64,000 bases of DNA, from the NCBI GenBank assembly GCA_018901755.1, contig JAHIDZ010000020.1, positions 17,607-81,606 on the forward strand. The letters are read 5' to 3'. The notes under the pieces were generated by a model. That model did not search any database, had not been told where the DNA came from, and saw nothing but the letters and a program-made list of their open reading frames with translations. A program made the translations under genes and the position numbers. Of this stretch, positions 6,088 to 62,356 are shown in pieces. How positions within the stretch are numbered: position 1 is the first letter of the stretch; every line of letters starts with the position of its first letter. This DNA is from Nanobdellota archaeon (GTDB lineage Archaea > Aenigmatarchaeota > Aenigmatarchaeia > Aenigmatarchaeales > Aenigmatarchaeaceae).

Positions 6088-6471
6088 TTATTCTAACTCA
6101 TTTTGAATTTTTAGCAACTGTGTTTCGATTTTATTCATTTCAGACATTACTTTTTTAGATGCTTTTTCAAATTCGGTCATTTTTTCTAAAACCATCTTAA
6201 TAGCTTCATTTCTTTTCTTTTTTACAGCCATTCCTGCACCAATTGAAACTAATATTTCCTCATTATTTTCCACTTTTCCAAGAACAAAATATGATGATCC
6301 TAATGGTATGTAAGCTTCGCCCTTATTATTACCGATTTCTTCCAATGCAAGCTTTGTTCTTTCAAACTCTTCCATTGAACTATTTATTAGTTTAAGTCTA
6401 TCATCAAGCATTTTAAAATTATTCTGTAATACTTGAAACTGCATCATTTTTTCTTGTTTTTCATCTGTCAT
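6088..6471 (-). CDS. pfdA: prefoldin subunit alpha
   Basis: Coiled coils flanking GEAYIPLGSSYFVLGKVENNEEILVSIGAGMAVKK. Confidence 0.85.
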   Translation of the reverse strand: MTDEKQEKMMQFQVLQNNFKMLDDRLKLINSSMEEFERTKLALEEIGNNKGEAYIPLGSSYFVLGKVENNEEILVSIGAGMAVKKKRNEAIKMVLEKMTEFEKASKKVMSEMNKIETQLLKIQNELE

Positions 6472-7793
6472 TCAAACACCTCAATATAATTTTCTACTAT
6501 TTTTTTTTTTGACGCATCTATTATAATTTTTCTAGCATTAGTTGTAGTCTTATAAATATAAGCTTTAGTATTTAAACTATTTTGATTTACTATTTTTAAC
6601 ATGCCCATGTCCTTAAATTGATTTAATCTTAAACATATTGTGGCATCTGAACGATTGAAATTCTCCTTAATAATTGGTGAAGACAAATAACCATATTTTT
6701 CTTCTATTTCACAAAATATTTTTAAAGTTTTTATTAGAGCTTCTGTTGGTAAAAATTTAGTTTTTTCGTATCTTGTATATTTTTCAATCAGTTTTCTAAG
6801 TCTTATTTTCTTATAATCTATGTCGAAATTTATCTTGCTAAAAAATATTTCTAGATTTTTCTTAGTGGTTATGCACAGTTTCCATCGATGTCTTAAATGT
6901 AATTTATTATCTTTAATAAAACTTGTCTGGTCTACTACTATATTATTAATGGAGATGCCAAAACTTTCTAATAATTTTTTATCGCCCTTAAATATTTCTG
7001 ATGAATACTTTAATAATTTGTTCTTAAGTATTTTTTTCCTAAACATTTTTGATATGCAAGTTACATTCGCAGATAAACTCAAATATATTTCATTTCGCGA
7101 TATACAACCCTCGTCGTCAAATGCCTGCTTTAAAAATGCACCTCTTATAATTTCATCGGCATCCATGATAAAATGTGGTATTTCAAGATTAGTAACTACT
7201 TTATTTCCCGATTTTAATCCGATGCAATTAACCAAAACTATACCGATTATTTTTGGAAAAAGCAGTCTCTCCTTTTTTGGATTAGCGGCTGAATATATAT
7301 CTCCAAAAACATTAGACATAGCATTATAAACTTTTCTTCTAATCTTTTTATCTGAATTAAAATAGTATGGATTTAGCGTAGTGGCTATGCCGCCATCATG
7401 TAATATGGAACTAATAATTATAGCGCCATCAACAGAATTAAGATTAAATGGTAACTTGGGGTTCACCAGACCTTTACCACCGCTCTTTACACCAATTTTA
7501 AATATATTTTGTTCGGTTTCTTTTAATAAATTTTTATCTAAAGTTAAAATAATTTTTCTGAGATCTCTTAGTGATATAGCTCGAATTCCGTAAATAAATT
7601 TTTTAACTATGGAATAAGATAAATTAGAAACTCTGCAAAACTCAGCTTTATTTTTTATCATACTAGAAATTTTCTTATGGAAATCTTTTCTGAGTTCAAC
7701 ATATACCTTATCTGATGGCAAATTCCAAAGATAAACAACTCCACTATCTTTAATAGAATTTTTATTCATATAAGATATTTTAGTACTATACAA
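6468..7793 (-). CDS. free-standing LAGLIDADG-type homing endonuclease-like protein (HEG1)
   Basis: Two degenerate LAGLIDADG motifs (DGAIIISSILHDGGIA; IIRGAFLKQAFDDEGCIS) with winged-helix-like ends; fits exactly between the IF6 and prefoldin genes. Confidence 0.75.
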   Translation of the reverse strand: MYSTKISYMNKNSIKDSGVVYLWNLPSDKVYVELRKDFHKKISSMIKNKAEFCRVSNLSYSIVKKFIYGIRAISLRDLRKIILTLDKNLLKETEQNIFKIGVKSGGKGLVNPKLPFNLNSVDGAIIISSILHDGGIATTLNPYYFNSDKKIRRKVYNAMSNVFGDIYSAANPKKERLLFPKIIGIVLVNCIGLKSGNKVVTNLEIPHFIMDADEIIRGAFLKQAFDDEGCISRNEIYLSLSANVTCISKMFRKKILKNKLLKYSSEIFKGDKKLLESFGISINNIVVDQTSFIKDNKLHLRHRWKLCITTKKNLEIFFSKINFDIDYKKIRLRKLIEKYTRYEKTKFLPTEALIKTLKIFCEIEEKYGYLSSPIIKENFNRSDATICLRLNQFKDMGMLKIVNQNSLNTKAYIYKTTTNARKIIIDASKKKIVENYIEVFE

Positions 7794-11052: not shown

Positions 11053-11925
11053 TTAAATATTACTAACCATTAAACTAACGGCACATCCATCGAATAGTTC
11101 TATTATTTTGTTTATTTGTTCTCTTTTGAATATATTTATACTCCACGAATTCATCGTTCTGTCTTGGTAAATTTTGGCTTTGATATTTAAAGAATCTAAC
11201 ATTATTGAAATATCTTCTAAAATTGCTCTTGTACTTTGTTTAATCGCAAATGTCATTCTTCCATCTTTTCTTACACTTAAAGAACCATCGCTGTTAAAAA
11301 ATCCATATATAAATGCAATTTTATTTTCGTTGTTGGATTTAAATATTAATTTTGGCACTCTTATTCTATCTTTCTTTTTTCCTAAGGGAATATCAAAAAC
11401 TCTATTAAGAAATTCTTTTAATGGAACAGAAGTAATTTCAAGCAAATAATAATTATCAATCGATTTGAATTTACAATTGATATTAAAAATATCCATTAAT
11501 ATCTTTTTAGCTCGTTTTACTTCTAAATGAGATGAAGATATAAGTAAAGTGCCTTTCTTGAAAGTTATGCATCCATCACCTAAAATTAGCCCCACCAAAT
11601 AACTTAAGGGTACTGTTAATTTTATTGGCAAATTGATTGGTTTACTGTTTCTTGAAGAAAAGCCATTATTATTGCCATATATCTTATCAAAATAAGAAAA
11701 GTCTCTAATTTGGTCACAAAGACGATATAGATTTTTTATAGAAATTGGAGTATCTTTTTTCCATTTGTATATTAATGATTTATGAACGTTTAATTTTTCA
11801 GCCAATTTACTAAAACTAATTCTTGGTTTTATCCTTAGAAGTATCTCATTAATAATATGCCCAATGCCATGAATATATATTTCTGAATTAGATTCTTTTA
11901 ATTGAACCAAATAATTTTCTATCAT
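11053..11925 (-). CDS. free-standing LAGLIDADG homing endonuclease-like protein with HTH (HEG2)
   Basis: LSYLVGLILGDGCITFKKG and AFIYGFFNSDGSLSV motifs; lies 5' of tRNA-Gly. Confidence 0.9.
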   Translation of the reverse strand: MIENYLVQLKESNSEIYIHGIGHIINEILLRIKPRISFSKLAEKLNVHKSLIYKWKKDTPISIKNLYRLCDQIRDFSYFDKIYGNNNGFSSRNSKPINLPIKLTVPLSYLVGLILGDGCITFKKGTLLISSSHLEVKRAKKILMDIFNINCKFKSIDNYYLLEITSVPLKEFLNRVFDIPLGKKKDRIRVPKLIFKSNNENKIAFIYGFFNSDGSLSVRKDGRMTFAIKQSTRAILEDISIMLDSLNIKAKIYQDRTMNSWSINIFKREQINKIIELFDGCAVSLMVSNI

Positions 11926-23659: not shown

Positions 23660-23817
23660 TGGTGTCGGTGGTGAGATTTGAACTCACGGCCTCAAGATTT
23701 CTCTCATCCCTATGGTCGATACTCATAACAGAAGTTATGAGTCTTGCGTTCTACCAGGCTGAACCACACCTTAACGACTAACCACAGGCGTGATTAGTTG
23801 ACGTCGTAGTCACCGAC
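23660..23817 (-). tRNA. tRNA with CAT anticodon (Met or Ile2); intron at 37/38 and probable second intron in the acceptor stem; 5' end uncertain
   Basis: 3' strand CACCGAC-A-CCA needs GTCGGTG; D-arm GTTC...GAAC; anticodon arm CAAGA-CTCATA[37 nt]A-TCTTG; T-arm GTGAG-TTCAAAT-CTCAC. GTCGGTG occurs at 23817-23811, GTCG also at 23778-23775. Confidence 0.7.
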
Positions 23818-24335
23818 ATTGATTTCACTATATTAGTTTTCTCTTTGACCTTTTTAAATGACGTGCGATAGTAATAACAATTTCTATAAATAGCATTACG
23901 CCATGGTTTAATACCTTTTTGTTTTAGATATTTAAAAATATACGGCCCTATCCATTTAACTATTGTTTGTGAGAATCCTATCGTATTTCCACTGACATAA
24001 CCATCTCCATCTAAAAACCCAGCAATAAACGCATCAGCATTGCTAGGAAAATATTTTATCTGTTTCATTGGCATTAGAAGAAAGAAATTTTTACAGGTTG
24101 CTTTTATTTCCATCGCTCCTTTACTAATTCGAGTATGAAACCTAACATTCATTTTTGTGAGAATATTCTTAACTTTGTCAATTACTTCCATATCTTTCTT
24201 AGGATTCAAATAAAATACAGTTCTGTATGTTCTTTTGTCAATATATTTAGAACCATCGGCATAAAACAAACCTATCAACCAATCTAACTCGATCTTAGTT
24301 ATAGCATTCACATTAATTTTCTTTATATAAATCAT
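23778..24335 (-). CDS. free-standing LAGLIDADG homing endonuclease-like protein (HEG3)
   Basis: LDWLIGLFYADGSKY and DAFIAGFLDGDGYVS motifs; 3' end runs into the 5' region of the CAT tRNA. Confidence 0.9.
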   Translation of the reverse strand: MIYIKKINVNAITKIELDWLIGLFYADGSKYIDKRTYRTVFYLNPKKDMEVIDKVKNILTKMNVRFHTRISKGAMEIKATCKNFFLLMPMKQIKYFPSNADAFIAGFLDGDGYVSGNTIGFSQTIVKWIGPYIFKYLKQKGIKPWRNAIYRNCYYYRTSFKKVKEKTNIVKSMSVTTTSTNHACG

Positions 24336-24631: not shown

Positions 24632-25288
24632 CTAATTTAGTTTCTGTTGTACACCTTTATTAATTAATTCCTTTTTATAGTTTATTGTCATAAATGGTAA
24701 AACATGCTTATTAATAAATATCGCATTTTTTCTAGAAATACATATATCATAATCGTACCATCTTCCATATGTTGTTCGGCCATCTCTAAAAACAGAAAAT
24801 CTACAATTTTTAGATGTGGTTACTTTGCACTTCATAAATTCATTTATTAGTTTTAACAAATCTTCATTAAATTTGCCATCGCTTATTCGTATCATATGTT
24901 GCGGGTATTTTGGCCTTTTAACACGAACATTTCCATCACCATCTATAACACCGGCTAAATGGGCACCGAAATTAGATTCGGATTGTTTTATCCAATCTGG
25001 GATTCCTATCTTTCCAATTCCCTGTTCTTTAAATGTTTCTAATAATTTATTTACTGATGTATGAATATCGAAAAATCCATCTTTTGATTCATGAATATTA
25101 ATATCTCTTCCATAAAGTTCTTTTAAACTTCTTTGAAACTGTTTTAACATTTGAAAAGATTTCTTACCTACTTTAAGACCAATGTCTGTTCTTCTATAAA
25201 CTTTATTTCTTTTAATTGTATTATACGTTGTAAGTTTTCCATCTGTTTGCAACACTCCTAAAAAATATGCTAATTTTTCTTGGTTCAT
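24632..25288 (-). CDS. free-standing LAGLIDADG homing endonuclease-like protein (HEG4)
   Basis: LAYFLGVLQTDGKLT and GAHLAGVIDGDGNVRV motifs; stop codon abuts the first base of tRNA-Asp. Confidence 0.9.
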   Translation of the reverse strand: MNQEKLAYFLGVLQTDGKLTTYNTIKRNKVYRRTDIGLKVGKKSFQMLKQFQRSLKELYGRDINIHESKDGFFDIHTSVNKLLETFKEQGIGKIGIPDWIKQSESNFGAHLAGVIDGDGNVRVKRPKYPQHMIRISDGKFNEDLLKLINEFMKCKVTTSKNCRFSVFRDGRTTYGRWYDYDICISRKNAIFINKHVLPFMTINYKKELINKGVQQKLN

Positions 25289-26579: not shown

Positions 26580-27251
26580 TTACCCGCAAACTGCGATGCC
26601 ATCTACTGTGTTGGATGGCCCGACGATTCTCAAGTTGTGACTACCGATTAGTCCACTGCCTATCTTGCATGTGACAGACGAATCTGCTGTAATGATTCCA
26701 GCACAACCAATAGGAGAAACCTCGTTTCCATCAACATAAAACTTCAAATCAGAAATATTGATAGAACCAGTTCCAAAGCTTTTTACAATGATATTGATTT
26801 CTCCATTAGGGCAAGTCACCTTAGTCATAGCAAACATAGCAATGGTTGACACGGAGTTTGCCCCAGCTGTCGGCAATGATGCACCAGATGCGAAAATAGC
26901 GACCATAACAAAACCAACAATGACATAAACTATTGCTATTATAACTCCTGTGATGAGAAGTTTTTTTGCAAAAGCTTTGTCCTTCTCTTGTAAAAGAAGA
27001 TATGCCACTATTCCTCCCATGAACGTAAAGAATATGGGGAGCAAGTACCATAACTTGCAAGTACCATAACTTGCTTGGTTTTCAGTGTATTTTACAACTG
27101 GAATAGGTTTTTCTGATATAGCAACATTTATAGCTTCGATTATGTCTCTTTCAGACCAGTTTGCTCGCAGGAGATCGTTTTTAATTCGATCTAATGGAAC
27201 TCCTTCATTTAGGTTTGTTTTTATGTAATCAACAAGCTTCTGATTCGCCAT
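26580..27251 (-). CDS. hypothetical membrane/surface protein
   Basis: N-terminal helical domain, WYLLPIFFTFMGGIVAYLLLQ helix, Gly/Ser-rich C-terminus. Confidence 0.6.
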   Translation of the reverse strand: MANQKLVDYIKTNLNEGVPLDRIKNDLLRANWSERDIIEAINVAISEKPIPVVKYTENQASYGTCKLWYLLPIFFTFMGGIVAYLLLQEKDKAFAKKLLITGVIIAIVYVIVGFVMVAIFASGASLPTAGANSVSTIAMFAMTKVTCPNGEINIIVKSFGTGSINISDLKFYVDGNEVSPIGCAGIITADSSVTCKIGSGLIGSHNLRIVGPSNTVDGIAVCG

Positions 27252-29997: not shown

Positions 29998-31222
29998 CTA
30001 TATGATTTTTGCCCAACCACTAAGTCTCCAACGATCTTCTATTTTTCTAGAAATAACAACTCTATCACTTTTATCAGTGCATATTGGTGTTTTTAGAACA
30101 ACTTCACATTTGTTTCCTTTACTCATTTTTGCAGTTCCTATTGTTCTACCTGTTCCAACATTTAATAATAATATTTCACCTGCTATTATTTTCTTTTTAT
30201 CAAAAAGATTATATTCCATTGTAAATGTGCTTAATGTATTTGGTAATTGTATGCCTGCCACAGACCCATTAAGCGAATCGGCTTTTGTCAGATATGGGTC
30301 CAATTCAGTTAACACACCGAGTAATCCACCAGCGCCAGCTGTTTTCAAATCTTTACCAGCTTTCTGAAGACCAGTTACTTTTGTTTTAATTGGTTGCCAT
30401 TTATCTTTTATTTTAATACCTGGCTTTATTTCAATTTCATCCCCAACATCCAATTTACCCTGTACTATTCCACCACCAAGTATACCACCTTTTAATTTAG
30501 CTGGCTCTGTACCTGGTTTGTTTATATCAAATGATCTAACAACATACATTTTTACTGGTTTAGTTAAATCTCGTTCAGGTGTTGGTATAAACTCTTGTAT
30601 TGCATTAAGAAGAACATCAAGATTTATTTTCTGTTTTGAAGAAACCGGGATAACTGGTGCATTTTCTGCAACTGTTCCTTTAACAAATTCTTTAATTTGT
30701 TTATAATTTTCTAAAGCTTCTTCCTTAGTTACTAAATCTATTTTAGTTTGTACAATTATAATATTTTTTATTCCTACAATACCTAAAACCATTAGATGCT
30801 CTTGAGTCTGTGGTTGTGGACAACGTTCGTTTGCGGCGATAGTAAATATTACACCATCCATAAGACTAGCACCAGCTAAAACGGTAGCCATAAGTGTTTC
30901 ATGACCAGGTGCATCTACAAACGATACCGTTCGCACAACATCACATACTTCAAAACATTTACCACATTTATCAGAAGATGAGAACACACCACATTTTTTA
31001 CATTGATATAATGTTGCGTCTGCATAACCTAATTTAATTGTAATTCCTCTCTTTAATTCTTCAGAATGTAAAGCTGGCCATTTGCCTGAAATAGATTCAA
31101 CAAGCGTGCTCTTGCCATGTAGCCGGTCTATAAAATATTTCTTATAAACAATCGACGTGACCGAGCGTTCCTATGTTGACCTCTGGTATCAGCCTACTAT
31201 CAATTTCCTTTTTATCTAACAT
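29998..31222 (-). CDS. translation initiation factor aIF2 subunit gamma, interrupted by a predicted 31-nt BHB intron
   Basis: Exon 1 31222-31151 MLDKKEIDSRLIPEVNIGTLGHVD; exon 2 31119-29998 HGKSTLVESISGKWPALHSEELKRGITIKLGYADA...; joined frame continuous. Confidence 0.9.
31120..31150 (-). other. predicted BHB (archaeal-type) intron in the aIF2-gamma mRNA
   Basis: TGTTTATAAGAAATATTTTATAGACCGGCTA; helix GTTTATAA/TTATAGAC, central helix GTCG/CGGC, bulges ATT and TAC. Confidence 0.8.
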
Positions 31223-36690: not shown

Positions 36691-37839
36691 TTATTCAAGC
36701 TCTACTGAGTGTACTCCGGCCTTTGAGATTTTTATTTCCACTATTTCTAAACCATGTTTTTTCCATTCCTGTTCTATTTTTTTGTTTGTATTCTGATCAA
36801 AACTTACTGCGATTGCGCAATCTCCTCCTCCTGCGCCTGAAAATTTTCCAGCAGCTCCAAATATTTGAGCAATATCTGATATTAACGCAAGTTCCTTTGT
36901 TTCAAAATTATTTCGAGATTCCAAACTCAATTGTTGTAAAGCTTTTCTATTTGCATTTAATAGTGCAACTATTTTTTCTGTTTCATTTGCCTCCATTGCT
37001 CCAATCAGTTGCTGTGTTATTTCTTTTATATCATTAATTATTTTCCAATATTTTTCCATTTGAGTTTCTTTGAAAGAATTCAGTTTTAAAACCAATTCCT
37101 TCGTTGATGCGCTATATCCGGTATAACAAACACTTAAATTAAAATTATTAGGTAAAACCAATTCTTCTACAGAAAAGGCTGGCCATTCACAATCCATTAT
37201 TTCTGATAATTTTTTTCCAGAATTTATTTCTGATATTAACCAATTCGGATCAAATCTTTTATAAACAATTACACCTCCGAATGTTGCAGATGCTATATCA
37301 AAGGCGCTTCCAATTTTTCCCTGAGCGAGATAATGTGCAGTTGAAGCAATTTTATAAATCAGTTCTTTTTGTTTTTTTTCTTCAATGCCTATTCCATGAA
37401 ATTTAAGAAGTGCGGCAACTATTGCCGAACTCACTGCAGCGCTACTACCGAAACCAATTTTTTCTCCCTTACCAGTTTTAGCTATTGCTTGAGAAGAATC
37501 AGTTTCTATAATAAAATTTCTTATTTTCTTGCCTTTTTGAATAAGATATTGAAGCGTTATTTCTATTGCCTTTTCGCTTACGCAGATTTTAGTTTTCTCT
37601 TCTTGATTTAATGTTTTCTTCCAATTTAATTTTGTTCCGTCAAACTCTGCTTCGATATTAATCAATCCAATATCTGGTGCATTGAGTATTATTTTTTGAT
37701 TTTCTTCAATACTTGCAGAACAATATCTATCAACAGCCATTACTATGCATGGACACCCTACTTCCAAAACACTCCATTCTCCAGACAACATTAATTTCCC
37801 AGGCGCAGAAATTTTCAACAAATTATCACATATCCTCAA
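36691..37839 (-). CDS. phosphomevalonate kinase-like GHMP kinase
   Basis: ISAPGKLMLSGEWSVLEVGCPCIVMAVDRY...GEKIGFGSSAAVSSAIVAALL...KFSGAGGGDCAIAV. Confidence 0.82.
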   Translation of the reverse strand: MRICDNLLKISAPGKLMLSGEWSVLEVGCPCIVMAVDRYCSASIEENQKIILNAPDIGLINIEAEFDGTKLNWKKTLNQEEKTKICVSEKAIEITLQYLIQKGKKIRNFIIETDSSQAIAKTGKGEKIGFGSSAAVSSAIVAALLKFHGIGIEEKKQKELIYKIASTAHYLAQGKIGSAFDIASATFGGVIVYKRFDPNWLISEINSGKKLSEIMDCEWPAFSVEELVLPNNFNLSVCYTGYSASTKELVLKLNSFKETQMEKYWKIINDIKEITQQLIGAMEANETEKIVALLNANRKALQQLSLESRNNFETKELALISDIAQIFGAAGKFSGAGGGDCAIAVSFDQNTNKKIEQEWKKHGLEIVEIKISKAGVHSVELE

Positions 37840-37959
37840 CTTTTATTTTTTCGGTTTTCTCATCAAAAATAGCTTTTCTTGGTTTGCCTGTTCTGTAATC
37901 AATCAATGCTTCTTTTTCATCTGTTAAAATTTTTGGTCCATCTCCTACCCTACAAATCA

Positions 37960-38940
37960 TTATCTTTTGAACACCTTCAATACCTTGCAACATTTTCTGT
38001 ACTCTTGCAACATTTTCTGTACTCTTGCAACATTTTCTGCTGTAGTATAGATATGTACATTCGGTCCAGCATCAAAGGTATATGCTGCGATTATCTTTCC
38101 CTCTATACTATTCAATTCATGCACTGCATAAATTATTTCTCTAGAAATATTATTTAGATACATTATCGGTGGCCATGTATCAAGCATTACTGCATGCATA
38201 TCACTACTTTCTCTCATTGTTATCTCGCCGAATTTTTGAAAATCTTTCGCAATAACAGCTTTCTTCATTTCTTCAATTACTTTTTCAATATATTGCATTC
38301 TTGCTGGATATAAAAAACTTGTTGCAATTGTCTGTTTCATGCCTGCTCTACTGCTTATTTTCTTTTTTCCAGCATCGACAATTCCTATCACATTCCTTAA
38401 TTCTGGCCAGTGCGAAGCAGGCGCAATTTGAACTGCGATTGAATCTGAACCATCATCTTTCTCACCTTTTCTCCATTCTACAAAACCACCCAAAACACTT
38501 CTTGATGCACTACCTGAACCAATTCTTGCAAAAATAGATGTCTCGCTTCCTGAAAGATTCAAATCAGCTGCCTTTAGCGTAGCAATAGCCAATGCCGCTA
38601 AACCAGCAGCACTACTTGCAAAACCAGCTGCAGTTGGAAAACAATTAATTGAAACGATAAGAGCTTTTTCATTTATTTCTGCCCTTTTTCTTATAATATC
38701 CAATTGTTTCATTCTTTCAGCAATTTCTTTTTCTTTTAGATCCATTTTTTTCCCATTAAGCCAAAATTCATCTTCCTTTAAATCCTGAAGAAACATTACT
38801 GTTGTTCTTGTTTTCAGTTGTTCGTCCATTGTGAAACTCAAACTGCTGTTCTTTGGAAGTATCAATTCATCATCTCTTTTTCCCCAATATTTTATCACAG
38901 CAATATTTGCTGTTGCCTCACAGGTTGCAATTCCTTTCAT
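37960..38940 (-). CDS. mevalonate diphosphate decarboxylase-like, C-terminus frameshifted
   Basis: CEATANIAVIKYWGKRDDELILPKNSSLSFTMDEQLKTRTTV...AAGFASSAAGLAALA...RESSDMHAVMLDTWPP; normal tail lies in another frame down to 37826. Confidence 0.88.
   Translation of the reverse strand: MKGIATCEATANIAVIKYWGKRDDELILPKNSSLSFTMDEQLKTRTTVMFLQDLKEDEFWLNGKKMDLKEKEIAERMKQLDIIRKRAEINEKALIVSINCFPTAAGFASSAAGLAALAIATLKAADLNLSGSETSIFARIGSGSASRSVLGGFVEWRKGEKDDGSDSIAVQIAPASHWPELRNVIGIVDAGKKKISSRAGMKQTIATSFLYPARMQYIEKVIEEMKKAVIAKDFQKFGEITMRESSDMHAVMLDTWPPIMYLNNISREIIYAVHELNSIEGKIIAAYTFDAGPNVHIYTTAENVARVQKMLQEYRKCCKVLKVFKR
37985..38039. repeat. 20-bp tandem repeat (TTGCAACATTTTCTGTACTC), two full and one partial copies
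   Basis: Direct reading. Confidence 0.95.
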
Positions 38941-39936
38941 TTAATCGCCTCCAATTTTTGTTTTCTTGCAATTGAAACCGACATTTTCAAGTGAATTTGC
39001 AACATTCTGTTGTAGCTCTTCTCCCGGTGTAAGTATTAGCATTAGTCCCCCTCTACCAGTCCCTGTTAATTTAGCACCGAATGCATTTGCTTCTAATGCT
39101 ATCTTTTGCATTTTATCAAGTTCTTTACAGGAAACGGTTATTTCTTGTAATAATTCATGATTTTTATTCATCAGTTCTCCTAAGATTTTCCAGTTTCCAT
39201 TTTCTAAAGCAGGAAGCGCCGAATGAAAAACATTTTTATAATTTTCAAATACTTTTTCAACCATTTCTGGATTCTTATCCTTCAATATCTTTACATCCTT
39301 AACAACTATCTTTGTTTCTTGCGTTATTCCAGAATTTGCTAAAACAATTTCAACTGATTGTTTTATTTTCATACGCTCTATTTTATTTAATCCACCATGT
39401 AAATTTTTTTCAAAAGTTATAAGACCACCAAATACGGCACAGGTATTATCTATTCCAGATGGTGTACCCGAGCCTGCTTCTTCGGCAATATAAGCTGCTC
39501 CATTTATTTGTTCATCGGTCATATTCAAATCAAGTAGTTGATTCAAAGCTCTGGAAATACTTGCAGCAAGTGCAGCACTCGCCCCAATACCAGATGCACA
39601 AACGAGATTTCCAGAAAGTGTAATCTTTATCGGATTTATTTTAGTATCTATTTTGAAATGTTTTAACAATGCATTAAGTTGTCTTTGTATTTCATCTCTC
39701 TTTGTCTCTTTATAACCCGGAGTTTCGGGTCTATTATCAATAAATGTCAATCCTTCTGTTCCTATCTCAACAGTTGCTTTTGTATAATCTGTGAGCGCTG
39801 CTGCTATTGCTGGCAAACCATAAACAACAAAGTGTTCGCCGAATAAAATTGTTTTTCCATAACCAATTCCATTTCCATTTCCATTTCCATATGTATCTAT
39901 AGAATGTGCTTCAGACGAAACAGAACTTTCAATCAT
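38941..39936 (-). CDS. mvk: mevalonate kinase
   Basis: GKTILFGEHFVVYGLPAIAAAL...CASGIGASAALAASISRAL...KLTGTGRGGLMLIL. Confidence 0.9.
   Translation of the reverse strand: MIESSVSSEAHSIDTYGNGNGNGIGYGKTILFGEHFVVYGLPAIAAALTDYTKATVEIGTEGLTFIDNRPETPGYKETKRDEIQRQLNALLKHFKIDTKINPIKITLSGNLVCASGIGASAALAASISRALNQLLDLNMTDEQINGAAYIAEEAGSGTPSGIDNTCAVFGGLITFEKNLHGGLNKIERMKIKQSVEIVLANSGITQETKIVVKDVKILKDKNPEMVEKVFENYKNVFHSALPALENGNWKILGELMNKNHELLQEITVSCKELDKMQKIALEANAFGAKLTGTGRGGLMLILTPGEELQQNVANSLENVGFNCKKTKIGGD
39866..39890. repeat. TTTCCA hexanucleotide repeat in the mevalonate kinase 5' end (Gly-Asn repeat)
   Basis: ATTCCATTTCCATTTCCATTTCCAT; encodes YGNGNGNGIGYG. Confidence 0.85.
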
Positions 39937-40043
39937 AATTATTAATGGGCAATAGAACCTTAAATATATATCAGATTATTCTCCTTAAAATGACTATTTT
40001 TAATAATTAACAAAGGCTCTGCAAATCTACTTCACCGAAGAAC

Positions 40044-40271
40044 TTAGCTTTTACGACTCATTTTCTGGAAAGAAGCATTGATTATATTTCTTACTAATTC
40101 ATTTATTTCTCTACCAGCATAATCTTCTGGAAATGCTGTAAAATGATATATTACCCCAGGAGATGCTATTCCCATATTTATAGAAACAAATATTTTTTTG
40201 TTCGTCTTTAGTAATAAAATTAATTGATAACCTACCATTTCCATATTCAGTAATTTTAAATAAATTACCAA
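40044..40271 (-). CDS. hypothetical protein
   Basis: 75 aa ORF; followed by a Pop5-tail-like sequence. Confidence 0.4.
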   Translation of the reverse strand: MVIYLKLLNMEMVGYQLILLLKTNKKIFVSINMGIASPGVIYHFTAFPEDYAGREINELVRNIINASFQKMSRKS

Positions 40272-40292
40272 GAAAATCTTTCTAAATGCATT

Positions 40293-40679
40293 CTAAACAA
40301 AATTAGTTAAATCTACTTCGCCAAAGAACTTTTGCTTAGCTGCTTTTATTGTTCCAGATACGCCAAGAACTGTTATCATTGCTCTACTGTCTCCAATTCT
40401 TTGAACTAAAGCTAAAGACATTCTTATCTGCTCAACAGACGTGTGAGAACATTTAATTATTCCTATTTGTTTTTCGTCATCATAATTTTTTTTACCCAAC
40501 CAAACACTTGCTTCAGCTACACCCAGCTCGCCTAAGAAGTTTAATAGAGAATGCCATATACTGTTGAATACATCTATAGCAAATATTTTCTTTTCTGAAA
40601 CTACCTGAAATGCTATGTAACGTTTTCTACTTCTCAATGTTGGTGATAGTGGTCTTGGTCGATCATCCAATTTCAACAC
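40293..40679 (-). CDS. rnp2: RNase P protein component 2 (Pop5)
   Basis: RSRKRYIAFQVVSEKKI...AEASVWLGKKNYDDEKQIGIIKCSHTSVEQIRMSLALVQRIGDSRAMITVLGVSGTIKAAKQKFFG. Confidence 0.87.
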   Translation of the reverse strand: MLKLDDRPRPLSPTLRSRKRYIAFQVVSEKKIFAIDVFNSIWHSLLNFLGELGVAEASVWLGKKNYDDEKQIGIIKCSHTSVEQIRMSLALVQRIGDSRAMITVLGVSGTIKAAKQKFFGEVDLTNFV

Positions 40680-41403: not shown

Positions 41404-41787
41404 TTAAAGTTTAAGTTTTCTCGGGGCTTCCTTATCAATCTCAGTACTAAGTTTATTGATATCAGATTCCCAGTATACCTCAGATGCTTCTGTTGATTTG
41501 ATTTTTCCTTCAAATTTGTTAACAATAAAATAATGTAATTTTGCTTTCTCCCCATTACTTGTAGTCCAAATATCAGAATGGATGAATTTAGGATTCTTTA
41601 TAATTATTCCTAGTTCTTCTCTCATTTCTCTTATTATACATTCTTCAAGTGTCTCATTAGAATCAAGATGCCCTCCTGGGAAACACACAATTCCTGGGCC
41701 AACCTCATCATCTGATCTTCGTTTCTCAACTAAGAATTTATCTCCCTTTAAAATTATTGCTGTTGTGATATGTACACAGTCGTTCAT
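41404..41787 (-). CDS. NUDIX hydrolase
   Basis: GGHLDSNETLEECIIREMREELGI. Confidence 0.92.
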   Translation of the reverse strand: MNDCVHITTAIILKGDKFLVEKRRSDDEVGPGIVCFPGGHLDSNETLEECIIREMREELGIIIKNPKFIHSDIWTTSNGEKAKLHYFIVNKFEGKIKSTEASEVYWESDINKLSTEIDKEAPRKLKL

Positions 41788-42536
41788 GGAATCATCTTCT
41801 CAAATTCTTCATATTTTTTTCCATCGATATAATCAAGCGTCTCTTTTAACCATAACTCTTGCATATTATTTTTAGGTTTAAAAGAACGAATAGCTCTCTC
41901 AGGATTATCTCCATTCTTAATAACATCAAACATGTTCTTTATGATATCATCTGACCATTCTTCTCTTTTTGTTAAAGATGAAACAAAATCATTATTCCAT
42001 TTAAGTTGATAATCGACCAATTTCTGTGTATACTCTGGGTAATAGTTTTCTAAAAGTTTTTTTGATTTGGCCCTTTCGTAGTATGATAAGAATCTTTCAA
42101 TTCTAGTTAAACCAGGATATCGGTCTCCAGTTTCGCATATCCATAACGGAGCTCTAAAAGCTACATATGCTCCCATATGTTCAAAAATTTTATCCGAAAG
42201 AAATAAACCTTCGCTTACTTTACTTTTCCAATCAACAGGACCGCTGTGATCATATATTGCTTGATATATTTCATCTATCTCATTTTTATCAAACGAATTA
42301 TATCCATTCAATATCTCTCGAGATTTTTCAGCGCCACCAGTCATTGCAGTTATCATAAGCGGAATAGATAATTTTTTACCAAAGAATGTAATAGTTGTAT
42401 CAACATCATTTATACACAATTCGGAAAGAGTTTGATGAATCAGAGTAACGTCTTTGAAAAGCGGATTTGCTGTTTCGACATCTTTTTCCAAACAAACTTT
42501 TATATGTTCTGCTTTTCTTTTTTGAATATTAGTCAT
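41784..42536 (-). CDS. chimeric ORF: N-terminal about 76 aa of type-2 IPP isomerase (IDI-2) joined to an unrelated HD-like helical region
   Basis: RKAEHIKVCLEKDVE...LIHQTLSELCINDVDTTITFFGKKLSIPLMITAMTGGAEKSREI is IDI-2-like; then NGYNSFDKNEIDEIYQAIYDHSGPVDWKSKVSEGLFLSDKI... Confidence 0.72.
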   Translation of the reverse strand: MTNIQKRKAEHIKVCLEKDVETANPLFKDVTLIHQTLSELCINDVDTTITFFGKKLSIPLMITAMTGGAEKSREILNGYNSFDKNEIDEIYQAIYDHSGPVDWKSKVSEGLFLSDKIFEHMGAYVAFRAPLWICETGDRYPGLTRIERFLSYYERAKSKKLLENYYPEYTQKLVDYQLKWNNDFVSSLTKREEWSDDIIKNMFDVIKNGDNPERAIRSFKPKNNMQELWLKETLDYIDGKKYEEFEKMIP

Positions 42537-42540
42537 AAAA

Positions 42541-43341
42541 TCACCCCGTAATTATTGTACCAACATTATTTCCTTTCATCGCATTAACAATATTTTCAGA
42601 TATCAGACCGCTAATAATTTGTGATTTTACTCCAATATTCATCAATTCTGAAACTTTTGTCAACATGCCACCAGATACATCTGTGTCTAAAGATCCTGTC
42701 AGCGCTTTTTTAACCTCTTCAAAGTTTTGTGAGTTTATTTCTGTAATATGTTTAGCATCATTAAATTTATTTGGATCTTTATCATATATTCCATTTACAT
42801 TTGTAATATGAATTATCTTTTCAGCGTTTAATTTTTTTGCAAGATATGGAGCTATTTGATCACCTGACAAAACAGCACATTTCTGTTTTTCATCATAAGC
42901 CGGAACACCGTATAAGACGGGTATCATTCCTATGTTTACTAAATTTTCTATTGCCGTTATATCTCCTTTCACTATTCTGCCCGCATTCAATATAATGAAA
43001 GAAGATGCCTGGCATGGAATAGCTGGTAAACCATGTTTGATTAGATGCTGTGTAGCAATACAATTTAATTCGTTCTGTAAACGTTGTACTTCTGCAAAAT
43101 CAACAAGCTGTTCATCTTTAACAATTCCAAGATGTAATCCTGTTCTCTTTGCAATCGAATGACCATAAGAACCTGCGCCATGAACGAGAATCAAACGCAT
43201 TTCTTTAGGATTATATCCTTTTGCTATTTCTGCAGAAAATTTCTCAAGATTCGCATAATCAACTTTAGGTATTTCACTTTTCTTATCAGTTATAATACTC
43301 CCGCCTAATTTTATTATTATAAGTGACTTCATAATAATCAT
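42541..43341 (-). CDS. ipk: isopentenyl phosphate kinase
   Basis: IIKLGGSIITDKKSEIPK...LVHGAGSYGHSIAKRTGLHLG...LSGDQIAPYLAKKLNAEKIIHITNVNGIYDKDP. Confidence 0.9.
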   Translation of the reverse strand: MIIMKSLIIIKLGGSIITDKKSEIPKVDYANLEKFSAEIAKGYNPKEMRLILVHGAGSYGHSIAKRTGLHLGIVKDEQLVDFAEVQRLQNELNCIATQHLIKHGLPAIPCQASSFIILNAGRIVKGDITAIENLVNIGMIPVLYGVPAYDEKQKCAVLSGDQIAPYLAKKLNAEKIIHITNVNGIYDKDPNKFNDAKHITEINSQNFEEVKKALTGSLDTDVSGGMLTKVSELMNIGVKSQIISGLISENIVNAMKGNNVGTIITG

Positions 43342-45479: not shown

Positions 45480-46562
45480 TTAATTTTCTCTTTCAACGAG
45501 ATAATCTGCAAATGCCTTTATCTTTTCTTTTGCTTCTGACGCTGGAAACAATTTATCTACGTCTTTCCAAGCACTCATAATCATGTTCTTTGCATAATTT
45601 TTTGCGTAGTTGACAGAATCATATTTTTTAATAATATCAATTGCTTCTTGCTTTAAATTGAAATCCGTTGGATGCATGTTCAAAATTTCTATTAATCTTT
45701 TTTTATCTTCTACAGAAGCATTCTGAAATGTATGAATAATCATCAGTGTTCTTTTTCCTTCTGTTATATCACTTCCAATATACTCTTTTACAAATTGCGC
45801 AGAATCACTTGTAGCAGTTAAATTCAATATATCATCTTTAATCTGGAAGGCTACTCCTATTGTTTCAGACAGTTTACCAATTGCCTCTACCTGTTCAGTT
45901 GTTGCTCCTGACAAAGCTGCTGCTATTTTAGCAGACATTCTAGCCAATGTACCGGTTTTATATGCGCACATCTGAAGATACTGCTTCTCACTCAAATTGT
46001 CTGCATTTGCTAATCCTTTGTGCCAGGTTATATCATATGCTTGTCCAAATGATAAATTAATCATTTCTTGAGCGTATATCTCATAAACATTCAAAAGTAA
46101 TTCGGGCTTGAATTTGTCTTTGTTTTTAATCAATGATAAAAGCGGCAAAAAATACATTGTATTCCCAGCATTTATAGCAATATCAACGCCAAACATCTTA
46201 TGTGTGCACGGCTTTCCTCTTCTTAGATCACTGGAATCCTCAACATCATCTACCATAAGTGTTCCGTTATGAACAACTTCTGGTATTACAACAAATTCTT
46301 TTACATCTTCTGGATTCTTTCCTAAAGCTTCTGCAATAAGTAAAAACAATACTGGTCTCCATCTCTTTCCTCCGCGATTTAATAAATCCCATATTGGATC
46401 TGCAACACCTTTGTTAATTGCATTAATATCATGTTCATACCTAGCGTTCCCGCATGTGAATAATAAACTTTCCAAATCATATTTTTTTGGTATATATTTT
46501 TCAATTATTCTATCTATTTCAGGACCCTTTTCTTTAAGAACTTCCTTAATATCAACCATCAT
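45480..46562 (-). CDS. polyprenyl (GGPP-type) synthase
   Basis: GGKRWRPVLFLLIAEALG, LMVDDVEDSSDLRRGKP, FQIKDDILN. Confidence 0.9.
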   Translation of the reverse strand: MMVDIKEVLKEKGPEIDRIIEKYIPKKYDLESLLFTCGNARYEHDINAINKGVADPIWDLLNRGGKRWRPVLFLLIAEALGKNPEDVKEFVVIPEVVHNGTLMVDDVEDSSDLRRGKPCTHKMFGVDIAINAGNTMYFLPLLSLIKNKDKFKPELLLNVYEIYAQEMINLSFGQAYDITWHKGLANADNLSEKQYLQMCAYKTGTLARMSAKIAAALSGATTEQVEAIGKLSETIGVAFQIKDDILNLTATSDSAQFVKEYIGSDITEGKRTLMIIHTFQNASVEDKKRLIEILNMHPTDFNLKQEAIDIIKKYDSVNYAKNYAKNMIMSAWKDVDKLFPASEAKEKIKAFADYLVEREN

Positions 46563-54736: not shown

Positions 54737-55762
54737 ATGCAAAGAAAATTAAGATGGAATGAAAAAGAAATAGATACAATCAAAAAATATTATGGAAAAA
54801 AGAAGGTTACTGAATTATCTAAGTTAATAAACAGAAGCAAAGAATCTATTGAAACCAAAGCTTTTAGATTAGACTTAAAATCAGATTTAACGCCTCTTAA
54901 AGAAATAAATTTAGAACTTAATGAAAACTTAGCATACATAATTGGAGTTGTTGCTGGAGATGGTTCTATAACATATTATAAAGATAAATTTGGAACAGAA
55001 CATTTTTGCGTAATTCTTTATGTTAAGGATAAAGATTTTAGGGATAATTTTGTTCGCAGTATAGAAAAGATTGGCGGTCATTGCACAGTATGTAAAAATA
55101 AAAGAAATATCTATCAAGCATCAATATCTTCAAGAAGCTTATACAAGTTTATAGAAAACTTTGAATTGGAAAATATTAAAAATTTAAATGATAAAATCAA
55201 ATGTGCATTCTTAAGAGGACTTTATGATGCAGAAGGGCATATAACAAAAAACAAGGGCACAATTAATTCTGTAGTGATCGGATTCACAAACAAAAATAAG
55301 AAAATCATACGTCTAGTAAAAGATATCTTAGTATCAATTGAAATTAGCTATAAAGAGTATGCAATAACAGGTTCGAGTTTCAATCCGATTGGCAAATATT
55401 GGTGTTTGAAAATTTTAAGAAAAACAGACGTTATGAAATATTATAAAATGATTGGATTCTCAATCCAAAGAAAACAAGAAAAACTTGAGAACTTTGTTGA
55501 AAAAGAAGAATTTTTAGATATTGTTAAATCTACGCAAGGTTTAATAAGATACAAATCAATTAACAATTGTTACTGGCATGGAGGAGAAGACCTTAACAAA
55601 GTTATTAAACTGAGAACCGAAGGAAAAACTTATAATGATATTCATAAATTAACAAATATCCCTGAAGGAACGCTTTCAAAATGGTTAAGAAACGAAAGAA
55701 GACCCTTCAGAGTTTTTGTTGAACAGAATAAAAATGGTGGTCAAAATTCAAACCCAATGTGA
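54737..55762 (+). CDS. free-standing LAGLIDADG homing endonuclease-like protein (HEG5)
   Basis: LAYIIGVVAGDGSITYYK and CAFLRGLYDAEGHIT motifs; N-terminal SANT-like HTH. Confidence 0.92.
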   Translation: MQRKLRWNEKEIDTIKKYYGKKKVTELSKLINRSKESIETKAFRLDLKSDLTPLKEINLELNENLAYIIGVVAGDGSITYYKDKFGTEHFCVILYVKDKDFRDNFVRSIEKIGGHCTVCKNKRNIYQASISSRSLYKFIENFELENIKNLNDKIKCAFLRGLYDAEGHITKNKGTINSVVIGFTNKNKKIIRLVKDILVSIEISYKEYAITGSSFNPIGKYWCLKILRKTDVMKYYKMIGFSIQRKQEKLENFVEKEEFLDIVKSTQGLIRYKSINNCYWHGGEDLNKVIKLRTEGKTYNDIHKLTNIPEGTLSKWLRNERRPFRVFVEQNKNGGQNSNPM

Positions 55763-58024: not shown

Positions 58025-61000
58025 ATGACAGCACTTGCAAACGTATTTAATACGTTATATACTCCAGTCCATCAGCTAGCAGTATCTCGATTTAAAGAAT
58101 CAACACCTGTTCAAGAAAAAGTGATTCCGCGTATTCTGAAAGGTAAAAACATATTAGCTATCGCCGGAACTGGATTAGGCAAAACCGAGAGTGCAATGCT
58201 TCCAATATTTAGCAAAATGAAAGAGAAAGAACATCTACCAATTGCCTGTCTATACATTACCCCTATGAAAAGTTTGAATAGAGATTTACAAAATAGAATG
58301 ATATGGTGGTGTAATAAACTTGAATTAGATATTTCTATTCGTCACGGAGATACAACTCAGTATGAACGTAAAATACAATTAGAACATCCGCCACAAATTA
58401 TGGTTACTACTCCAGAACAGATTCAAGCAATGTTAATCGGTAGCAGATTTCGAGAACATCTTAGAAACATAAAATATATTGTTATTGATGAAATTCATGA
58501 AATCGTACAAAGCAAACGAGGCGTGCAACTAACAGTCGCGTTAGAACGTCTAAAAGAACTTTGCGGTGAACCTCAAGTTATTGCATTAAGCGCTACAGTT
58601 GGTTCTCCTGAATTAGTTGCTAAATTTATTTTCAATAAAAACGACTATGAGATTATACAGATACCAACAATTAAAGATTTATCTCTTGAAGTAAAGTGTC
58701 CAGTAGCTTGCGAAGAAGATAAGAAAATAGCAGAAACCGCGTTCATCGGTGAGAATGTTGCAGCTCGTCTTAGAACAATCCATGGTATAATAAAACAACA
58801 TCAATCATCTTTAACATTTACAAATACTAGAGAAGCTGCAGAAATTCTATCATCTCGTCTTAGAATATTTGATAAAGATTTAGCTCATGAAGTTCATCAC
58901 TCGTCGCTGTCGAAGGACGTCAGAATTAAAGCTGAGAAAGATTTCAAAAGCGAAAGTCTCAAATCAATGATTTGCGTAAGTGGTGATTCTAGAACTTTGA
59001 CTAAATGTGGTTCATGGAAGGAGATAAAAAATCTCGATATAAACGAAAATATAGTATCTATAGATGAAACAGATTTAAAAGGAAAAGAAAGTATCTCAAG
59101 ATTGATAACTAATAATGGCAATAGAAATATATTTGAATTAAAATCGAACCTAGGATATAAAATAAAAACTACAAATAACCACAAATTCTTAACGATAAAC
59201 GAATATTCAAAGATAGAATGGAAAGAACTGAAAAAACTAAAAGTTGGGGATCCTGTAGCTATTTTCAGAAATCCTATCAAAGGTAAACAAAAGGAATTTC
59301 TAGACATCCTTCCGGATAAAACATATGTAAAAATAAAGGAAAATAAAATCACTGCAATAAAAGATATTCTAAAATCAAAAAACATTACATATGAACAACT
59401 TGGTTCACGCATTTCATATAAAAAAAGTTTGATAAAAAGTTTTCTTGGAGAAAAGAAATACTCAAAATTGTCCATCGTAAAAGATGTTTTCAAGTTTTTA
59501 GAAATTAAACTTCGCTATGAAGATATAAAATATGTGGGTGTTCGTAATTATCATGAATTCAAAATACCAAAATATATAGACCCTACATTTTCAAGATTGT
59601 TAGGATTCCTATTATCAGATGGCACAATAACGGGAAAGGGCAGAATAAGATTTTTTAACAAAAATGTAAAGTTGTTGAAAGAATTCAAAATATATTTATT
59701 CAATAAATTCGGCATACATTCGCAATATAAATTATCTGAAGATGGCGTTACAACTTTAGAAGCGGAAGCAGTATGGTTAGGCGATACCTTAGCTGAGATA
59801 GGAATTATTAGAGGAAGAAAGGCCAGAATATTAAAAATTCCAACAGTTATATTTGAACTTCCAATAAAACATAGATATAATTTTCTTGCGGGATATTTCG
59901 ACGGAGACGGAAATCATGAAAGCAAAGAAAATAGACTAGTTTCTATAATATTCAATACATATAGTAAAAGGGCGGCAGAGGACATTCAATTAATGCTTTT
60001 AGGGCTTGGTATAATATCATCATTAAGAGACAACAGTGAAAAGGATAAAGGATATCATGTTGCAATTATAGGAGGATTGCATCTTAAAAAATTTATTAAA
60101 AACTGCAAATTCCTTAAAATCAATTATAAAGACTTCATAACAAAAGGTGGTTATTCAAACATTGATACAATATACAACTTGGGAAATTATCTTAAACATT
60201 TAAGATTAAAGAGTGGAATCAGCACCTATAAAATGCAAAAATTACACGGAATAAATCCTATTAGATATGAATACAGAGAAAGATCAATATCCAGAAAAAA
60301 TCTGGCAAAACTTTTAAATATATACTCAAAATATACAGATATCGGCGTCGAAATCACAAAACTGCACAATTCTGATATTTTCTGGGATAGGATTCACTCA
60401 ATAAAATCAAAGGGAAGTGAAGAAGTTTATGATATAGTAGATAATGAATATAATAATTTTATATCAAATGGATTTATTTTACATAATTGCACTTCGTCGT
60501 TAGAGTTAGGAATCGATATCGGTTCTATCGATGTCGTGATACAGTATATGTCACCTCGTCAAGTTACAAAGCTCATACAGCGAGTTGGAAGATCAGGTCA
60601 TGGTTTAGGACGTAAATCAATCGGATATATTATAACTGCTGAAGGAGACGATGTGTTTGAAGCGTCTGTAATTGCTAGAAAAGTTCTAAACAGTGAACTT
60701 GAGAAAGTTAAAACATTTACAAACTGTTATGATGTTTTAGCTCATCAGATAATAGGAATGCTTATGCTTGATTATGAAATCGATGTTAAGAAAGCTTACA
60801 ATATAATTAAACGCGCATATCCCTACGCGACATTAAAAAAAGAAGACTTTGAACGAGTGTTAAAACTTTTAGAAGACATAAGATTAATCTATCGAGATAA
60901 AAATCTAATTAAACGTAAGAGAAGAGTTTTCGAATATTACTTTCAAAACCTTTCAGTTATTCCAGATAGCCGATCGTATAAGATAATAGATTTGAATACG

Positions 61001-62356
61001 AATTCATTCATAGGAAGTCTTGATGAGGAATTTGTTGCTAATCATAATCAAACTGGTTCTACGTTTATTATGAAAGGAAGTTCTTGGAAAATACTTTCTA
61101 TTGAAAACGGTAAGATACTTGTCGAACCTGTTCAAAACATTGAATCAGCTATTCCTGCTTGGGAAGGAGAACTTATCCCCGTCCCGTATAGTATCGCCGA
61201 GGAGGTTGGCTCGCTTAGAGATATGATTAGAAAACTGTTAGACAAAGAACTTGACAAAAAAGATATCGTCGCTAAGATAAAAGAAAAATATCCTGTATCC
61301 AATCAGGCTGCAGAGAAGATGATAAATGTAATTAAAAAACACATTAAAGAATTTGAACTTCCTACGAACAATGAGATTCTTCTAGAGAGTTACAAGGAGT
61401 ACGTTGTAATCCATGCTATGTTTGGTACGTTAGTAAATGAAACGATATCACGATATATTTCAGCTATTCTGTCTGCTGATTACGGTGAAGCTATCTTTAG
61501 TAAATGTGATCCCTATAGAATTATAATTCGTGGTTGTAGATTAGATGACATTAAAAGAGTTCTACTCGGATATCAGTCAGGTGATGCTGAACTTATTGTA
61601 GAGAAAGCTTTACCACGATCTTCTTTGTTTAAATTTAGATTCATACGAGTAGCGAAACGTATGGGTATTATTGACCGAGGAGCTGAATTTGATAAGATAA
61701 ACTTAGAAAGATTAATTGACGTCTACTACGGTTCGCCGTTATTTGAAGAAGCAATGAAAGAAGTATTAACTGAAAAACTTGACATAGTTAAAGCAAACGA
61801 AGTAATGACTCGAATTAAAAATAAAGAAATTGGAATTCTTGAAACGCAAGGGTTGAGTCCGTTAGGTGAGACTGGATTTAAGTTTGAACTAAGCGATATC
61901 GTTAAACCTAACACACCAGAGAAAGAGATATTCAATTTATTCAAAGGACGACTCTTGAATACGAAAATGCGTCTCGTTTGTATAAACTGTGGTGAATATT
62001 CTATATCCTATCAGGTTAAAGATATTAAAAATTTGATTTGCCCTAAATGTGAATCACGGTTAATTGCTATGCTTAGAGATTATGATAAAGAATCTCAGGC
62101 TATAATTAAGAAATGGCTTGCTACTTCTGATATGACGCCGGAAGAGGAAAAGAAACTTGAATACGTTAAGAAATCAGCTGAGCTTGCTATTAGTTATGGC
62201 ACACAGGCTGCGTTTGTTCTAGCTGGTCGTGGCGTCGGACCGCAGACTGCGTTTAGAATACTTGCTAAAGCTAATCTTACTGAAGATGAATTGTTGAAAA
62301 ATATTTTAAAAGCGGAACGAGACTACGTGGCTAACAAGCGTTTCTGGACAGACTAA
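58025..62356 (+). CDS. lhr: Lhr-type DEAD/H-box helicase interrupted by an intein
   Basis: GTGLGKTESAMLP, IDEIHEI, LSATVG, QRVGRSGHGLG; extein join ...SLKSMI/CTSSLELGIDIGSIDVVIQ. Confidence 0.93.
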   Translation: MTALANVFNTLYTPVHQLAVSRFKESTPVQEKVIPRILKGKNILAIAGTGLGKTESAMLPIFSKMKEKEHLPIACLYITPMKSLNRDLQNRMIWWCNKLELDISIRHGDTTQYERKIQLEHPPQIMVTTPEQIQAMLIGSRFREHLRNIKYIVIDEIHEIVQSKRGVQLTVALERLKELCGEPQVIALSATVGSPELVAKFIFNKNDYEIIQIPTIKDLSLEVKCPVACEEDKKIAETAFIGENVAARLRTIHGIIKQHQSSLTFTNTREAAEILSSRLRIFDKDLAHEVHHSSLSKDVRIKAEKDFKSESLKSMICVSGDSRTLTKCGSWKEIKNLDINENIVSIDETDLKGKESISRLITNNGNRNIFELKSNLGYKIKTTNNHKFLTINEYSKIEWKELKKLKVGDPVAIFRNPIKGKQKEFLDILPDKTYVKIKENKITAIKDILKSKNITYEQLGSRISYKKSLIKSFLGEKKYSKLSIVKDVFKFLEIKLRYEDIKYVGVRNYHEFKIPKYIDPTFSRLLGFLLSDGTITGKGRIRFFNKNVKLLKEFKIYLFNKFGIHSQYKLSEDGVTTLEAEAVWLGDTLAEIGIIRGRKARILKIPTVIFELPIKHRYNFLAGYFDGDGNHESKENRLVSIIFNTYSKRAAEDIQLMLLGLGIISSLRDNSEKDKGYHVAIIGGLHLKKFIKNCKFLKINYKDFITKGGYSNIDTIYNLGNYLKHLRLKSGISTYKMQKLHGINPIRYEYRERSISRKNLAKLLNIYSKYTDIGVEITKLHNSDIFWDRIHSIKSKGSEEVYDIVDNEYNNFISNGFILHNCTSSLELGIDIGSIDVVIQYMSPRQVTKLIQRVGRSGHGLGRKSIGYIITAEGDDVFEASVIARKVLNSELEKVKTFTNCYDVLAHQIIGMLMLDYEIDVKKAYNIIKRAYPYATLKKEDFERVLKLLEDIRLIYRDKNLIKRKRRVFEYYFQNLSVIPDSRSYKIIDLNTNSFIGSLDEEFVANHNQTGSTFIMKGSSWKILSIENGKILVEPVQNIESAIPAWEGELIPVPYSIAEEVGSLRDMIRKLLDKELDKKDIVAKIKEKYPVSNQAAEKMINVIKKHIKEFELPTNNEILLESYKEYVVIHAMFGTLVNETISRYISAILSADYGEAIFSKCDPYRIIIRGCRLDDIKRVLLGYQSGDAELIVEKALPRSSLFKFRFIRVAKRMGIIDRGAEFDKINLERLIDVYYGSPLFEEAMKEVLTEKLDIVKANEVMTRIKNKEIGILETQGLSPLGETGFKFELSDIVKPNTPEKEIFNLFKGRLLNTKMRLVCINCGEYSISYQVKDIKNLICPKCESRLIAMLRDYDKESQAIIKKWLATSDMTPEEEKKLEYVKKSAELAISYGTQAAFVLAGRGVGPQTAFRILAKANLTEDELLKNILKAERDYVANKRFWTD
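58973..60487 (+). mobile_element. intein with LAGLIDADG endonuclease domain (about 505 aa)
   Basis: Starts CVSGDSRTLTKCGSWKEI, LAGLIDADG motifs LLGFLLSDGTIT and FLAGYFDGDGNHE, ends NGFILHN followed by +1 Cys. Confidence 0.95.

Follow-up and report, generated by a model that had tools for sequence, protein, structure and literature searches.

A 20-bp tandem array sets the conserved end of a mevalonate diphosphate decarboxylase gene out of frame in a draft archaeal genome

Introduction

Bacteria are known to undergo phase variation through changes in the copy number of tandem repeats; one case concerns promoter repeats in M. tuberculosis (PMC12817950). For archaeal phase variation by coding tandem repeats, the open-access titles and abstracts listed by a literature search contained no clear precedent. 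Archaeal reading frames can also be interrupted by bulge-helix-bulge (BHB) introns, which are known in pre-mRNAs, e.g., that of cbf5 (PMC2738675). The mevalonate pathway, in turn, is present in only part of the DPANN genomes according to published surveys (PMC8407392, PMC11052028).

Here we describe an archaeal locus that touches on all of these subjects. It lies in a stretch of 64 kb, below called the window, from the draft genome of an uncultured archaeon with a small genome (835 kb, 21 contigs, 90.8% complete). An earlier note had proposed that a 20-bp tandem repeat shifts the frame of a mevalonate diphosphate decarboxylase (MDD) gene, and had left open whether this is a reversible slippage switch, a loss-of-function allele or an assembly error. 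The features concerned are collected in Table 1.

Table 1. Features of the MDD locus and its surroundings in the window.
Feature	Coordinates	Strand	Evidence
Exact tandem repeat of the 20-bp unit CAGAAAATGTTGCAAGAGTA (two complete copies plus 16 bp)	37984..38039	-	sequence, TRF
MDD ORF in its present frame (326 aa)	37960..38940	-	TIGR01240, 328.6 bits (curated cut-off 171.35)
Conserved C-terminal coding stretch of MDD, in a frame other than that of the ORF	37826..37983	-	no stop before 37828-37826
Phosphomevalonate kinase (PMK, Gram-positive type), intact	36691..37839	-	TIGR01220, 226 bits (cut-off 165.7)
Mevalonate kinase (MK), intact	38941..39936	-	TIGR00549, 225 bits (cut-off 163)
Fusion ORF: 5' part of IPP isomerase type 2 (IDI-2) and C-terminal part of an unrelated protein	41784..42536	-	
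Probable isopentenyl phosphate kinase (IPK) gene of the amino-acid-kinase family	42541..43341	-	named from sequence
Polyprenyl (GGPP-type) synthase	45480..46562	-	named from sequence
Apparent 31-nt BHB intron in the P-loop codons of the aIF2-gamma gene (31222..29998)	31150..31120	-	

Results

The Tandem Array and the Reading Frames

Read on the minus strand from 38039 to 37984, the array consists of the unit twice, followed by a 16-bp third copy, CAGAAAATGTTGCAAG, with the units starting at 38039, 38019, and 37999. TRF describes it as a repeat of period 20 with 2.8 copies and 100% match over 37984-38039. Exact tandems were scanned for in 349 kb, comprising the window and other stretches and making up 42% of the assembly. 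With a 36-base self-match at offset 20, the array surpasses every other exact tandem in these 349 kb, low complexity apart, and is thus far beyond chance; the runner-up was 30 bases at offset 12. The 349 kb showed no second frame-breaking exact tandem of this kind, and systematic tandem errors of the assembly were rejected on this ground. A reading shorter by one unit still carries a 16-bp direct repeat at a spacing of 20 bp, from which slippage could naturally start. Elsewhere in the window, an exact 16-bp tandem duplication (27041..27074) lies within ORF 26580..27251; it was rejected as a second frame-breaking case, as the ORF is open with two copies.

The score of the whole protein exceeds the curated cut-off of TIGR01240 and places it in the MDD family, as the earlier note had it, while the C-terminal domain profile PF18376 was matched only over positions 2-137 of 186. 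The ORF terminates with AENVARVQKMLQEYRKCCKVLKVFKR, and its final 14 or so residues (EYRKCCKVLKVFKR) are not homologous in the alignment to the ends of its relatives, of which the close ones run on for about 45-50 further residues. The conserved end, VQKMLQGIEGVQKIMICRVGDGPKILTDEKEALIDYRTGKPRKAIFDEKTEKIKVEDM, sits in another frame. Its stop lies about 10 bp before the likely PMK start, a TTG near 37817. The two frames overlap by 112 nt (38071..37960), and the active-site motifs, up to YTFDAGPN, are upstream of the shift and kept. The proposed frame shift was confirmed. The further proposals also held, namely that one unit fewer yields a typical C-terminus, to which the relatives are colinear, and that the extra unit exchanges about 45 residues (about 50 conserved ones by our count) for a short tail, here of 14. 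The ORF is disrupted in comparison to its homologues with the remainder still recognizable, which is the picture of a recent pseudogene or frameshift allele. No second MDD copy was found elsewhere in the genome.

Relatives and Predicted Structures

The MDD genes L029-L033 of Micrarchaeota are 65-77% identical to that of the window, L029 being the closest at 77%. In the alignment, L029, L030-L033 and more distant MDDs are all colinear with the shorter reading (..IEGVxKxMVCKVGxGPKxL..), and the extra unit was absent from every related MDD gene with a readable end; the array is therefore not kept as a contingency locus would be. The out-of-frame tail shares 21 of 47 residues with L029, and the tails of the other relatives share 21-27 of 46-47 with it. 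Because these figures are so close, the tail appears to have been coding until recently. Compared with L030-L033, it scores slightly below their scores among themselves. Its divergence hardly exceeds that of the other tails, so near-normal constraint acted on it until recently or acts on it even now. As this tail is also free of stops, the event is either recent or an artefact.

AlphaFold models were built on alignments of the window and locus proteins. The intact relative was modeled with confident C-terminal strands at 316-322, 327-329, 344-347, and 352-355 (block pLDDT about 88-94). These four predicted strands lie in the part that is lost from the window MDD, as does an invariant glycine, G323 of L029. 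In the model of the frameshifted protein, the end blocks have a pLDDT of 71 and 53 and only a short, low-confidence terminal strand is placed at 319-322, with the main fold still formed.

Pathway and Genomic Context

The window holds the MK-MDD-PMK block (36691..39936, minus strand) in a slot between the genes for Pop5 (40293) and IF5B (36634). The same slot contains two other ORFs in the syntenic genome G004, and in the congeneric G001 it measures only about 30 bp, with a Pop5 remnant on one side and IF5B on the other. The window MDD is only 45% identical to the MDD of G005, a genome of the same family, in contrast to the 77% shared with the Micrarchaeota gene, while aIF2-gamma, which this contig also encodes, shares 79% identity with that of G001. 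As the MDD is nearest to Micrarchaeota and aIF2-gamma to the congener, the sequences suggest that the block was acquired by horizontal transfer. Mis-binning of the contig (C4) was rejected, since the aIF2-gamma identity and the G004-like gene order tie it to this genome. At about 40000..40330 on the minus strand, a Pop5-like 3' end is present twice (AGTTCTTTGGCGAAGTAGATTT and GTTCTTCGGTGAAGTAGATTT) around a 75-aa ORF, an arrangement like an insertion scar.

HMG-CoA reductase (HMGR) and HMG-CoA synthase were not detected in the genome, although they could be located in the missing 9% or so. The fusion ORF carries the first 72 or so codons of IDI-2 (at about 42521-42312; positions 1-72 of 338), and no other IDI-2 was found in the genome. 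Its partner, joined in frame, is a separate gene in G004, where the order is rSAM, rSAM, IPK, NUDIX-like ORF, fusion-partner protein, NUDIX, Rpp30, Pop5, ..., IF5B. As the gene order is the same, the simplest reading would be a deletion at the IDI position. The probable IPK gene is 68% conserved in G004. The genomes of the same family (G001-G008) are mostly without MDD, MK, HMGR, and IDI-2, with no match to the MDD gene in G001. Judged from gene content, the mevalonate pathway is incomplete here and patchy in the lineage.

Introns in aIF2-gamma and Other Observations

In the window, the aIF2-gamma gene carries an insertion at GHVD^HGK, and removal of 31 nt restores the frame to GHVDHGKST. A different 31-nt insertion is found in the aIF2-gamma of G008 (L126/L172) near GH^VDHGK, a few codons earlier, and its removal restores GHVDHGK. 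Each insertion forms 4/4 central pairs, 3-nt bulges, and a 10-bp inner helix; the BHB cores have energies of -9.9 and -13.6 kcal/mol, and both motifs are present in the minimum-energy folds. For most other aIF2-gamma genes of the order, the match runs through the P-loop without a break, and that in G007 starts later, perhaps owing to a contig end. The two insertions are likely archaeal mRNA introns at two positions. They are probably of wider use, since a gene with such an intron can readily be mistaken for a frameshifted one.

EF1A-like matches in G010:C3 and G001:C83 are split in two (query 10-31 or 10-35, then from 87), which could reflect divergence or an insertion. By eye, many ORFs resembling LAGLIDADG-type homing endonucleases were noted (6468-7793, 11053-11925, 23778-24335, 24632-25288, 54737-55762, and 58025-62356), including an intein-like insertion in a helicase; they are dense for 64 kb.

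Discussion

We give about an even chance to the reading that a recent slippage duplication has frameshifted the MDD gene, leaving a truncated and probably impaired enzyme in an accessory, incomplete pathway. A single replication-slippage event, seeded by the pre-existing 16-bp direct repeat inside the gene, would have duplicated 20 bp. The shift would exchange about 50 conserved C-terminal residues, among them the invariant glycine and the final core strand of the GHMP fold, for the 14-residue tail, whereby MDD would be lost or impaired. The loss may be tolerated since the MK-MDD-PMK block seems to be an accessory, probably transferred gene set. The context favours loss of function over regulation, and among the three readings of the earlier note, loss of function fits best because the pathway is incomplete, IDI-2 is truncated, and most genomes of the same family are without the genes; the switch is without positive evidence, and an assembly error is the main rival. 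Against this explanation stands that the extra unit, seen in the assembly, may be absent in cells, and that MK and PMK are intact, so that the block has not undergone a broad decay. In addition, some activity of the frameshifted MDD is possible, given that it retains the catalytic motifs and is still modeled with the main fold.

The main rival, that an assembly or consensus artefact has added one unit to an intact gene, is somewhat unlikely in our judgement. The genome is a draft, the good preservation of the tail is not marred by a further lesion, the adjoining MK and PMK are intact, and graph assembly at short k can be led astray by the flanking 16-bp repeat; however, the 56-bp array fits inside a single short read, there are no Ns, nothing similar was seen in the 349 kb of assembly, and the other erosion of the pathway makes a real lesion plausible. 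A reversible switch, in which gain and loss of the 20-bp unit would alternate MDD between full-length and truncated forms, we regard as improbable. The units are perfect (100% identical), their length is not a multiple of three, the other frame is kept open, and there is the bacterial precedent for copy-number phase variation. On the other hand, only 2.8 copies are present, the gene belongs to core metabolism and is not surface-exposed, no comparable arrays occur elsewhere in the sampled 349 kb, and the absence of the array in relatives speaks against a conserved switch. Slippage rates are expected to be low for arrays as short as this. That the array is a live switch of terminal isoprenoid-precursor synthesis in subpopulations of a probably host-dependent archaeon is less probable again; if true, phase variation would here act, unusually, on a core lipid gene.

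It is very unlikely that the truncated 326-aa MDD still works, with the new tail replacing the last strand. The catalytic motifs are kept, the length of the ORF agrees with that of structurally characterized prokaryotic MDDs (317-334 aa), and the model puts a short strand at 319-322, but the invariant glycine and four predicted strands are lost, the tail is modeled with low confidence, and it is merely what the shifted frame reads. Least probable, to the point that we hardly credit it, is a correction of the shift, either in the mRNA by removal of 20 nt as a BHB intron or on the ribosome by a -1 slip in the array. Apparent BHB introns do occur in aIF2-gamma mRNA of the same family, and the self-complementary TGCA makes a 4-bp central helix possible in the array. 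An archaeal BHB has a 4-bp helix between two 3-nt bulges and a stable flanking helix at the junctions, whereas the array forms 4/4 central pairs with only three weak inner pairs. With energies of +7.2 and +2.3 kcal/mol, its BHB register lacks stability, in contrast to the aIF2-gamma motifs, its minimum-energy fold is without a BHB, and the relatives have no insertion at the site; the geometry scan and the fold energies thus led us to reject a 20-nt intron. Programmed canonical -1 frameshifting was likewise rejected, as no XXXYYYZ slippery heptamer is present in the frame overlap (38071..37960).

If the slippage duplication is real, it would show an isoprenoid enzyme just as it is being inactivated, in a lineage of small-genome archaea that patchily hold and lose the mevalonate pathway, and bear on how they obtain their membrane lipids. 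Should the array be an artefact, MDD would have to be annotated as an intact gene. As a feature of the sequence, the array is real and of an ordinary kind; what makes it interesting is its setting of pathway loss, along with the aIF2-gamma introns.

Compared with known systems, the array resembles phase-variable contingency loci in its perfect repeats, the copy number of which would set the frame, but differs from them in having few units, in lying in a metabolic gene, and in not being conserved in relatives. From archaeal BHB introns such as that of cbf5 (PMC2738675) it differs in forming no stable BHB, although the same organism carries a BHB-type insertion in aIF2-gamma. With short-tandem-duplication frameshift alleles that arise by slipped-strand mispairing, it has in common the exact duplication of a unit next to a direct repeat, a unit that is not a multiple of three, and an intact out-of-frame remainder, with the difference that the putative MDD allele comes from a draft genome. 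The protein itself belongs to the same family as the MDDs of the eukaryote-type mevalonate pathway (TIGR01240; 3f0n and the S. solfataricus-type 5gmd) over residues 5-313, with their active-site motifs, and differs from them in that the C-terminal 50 or so residues are replaced by a shifted frame.
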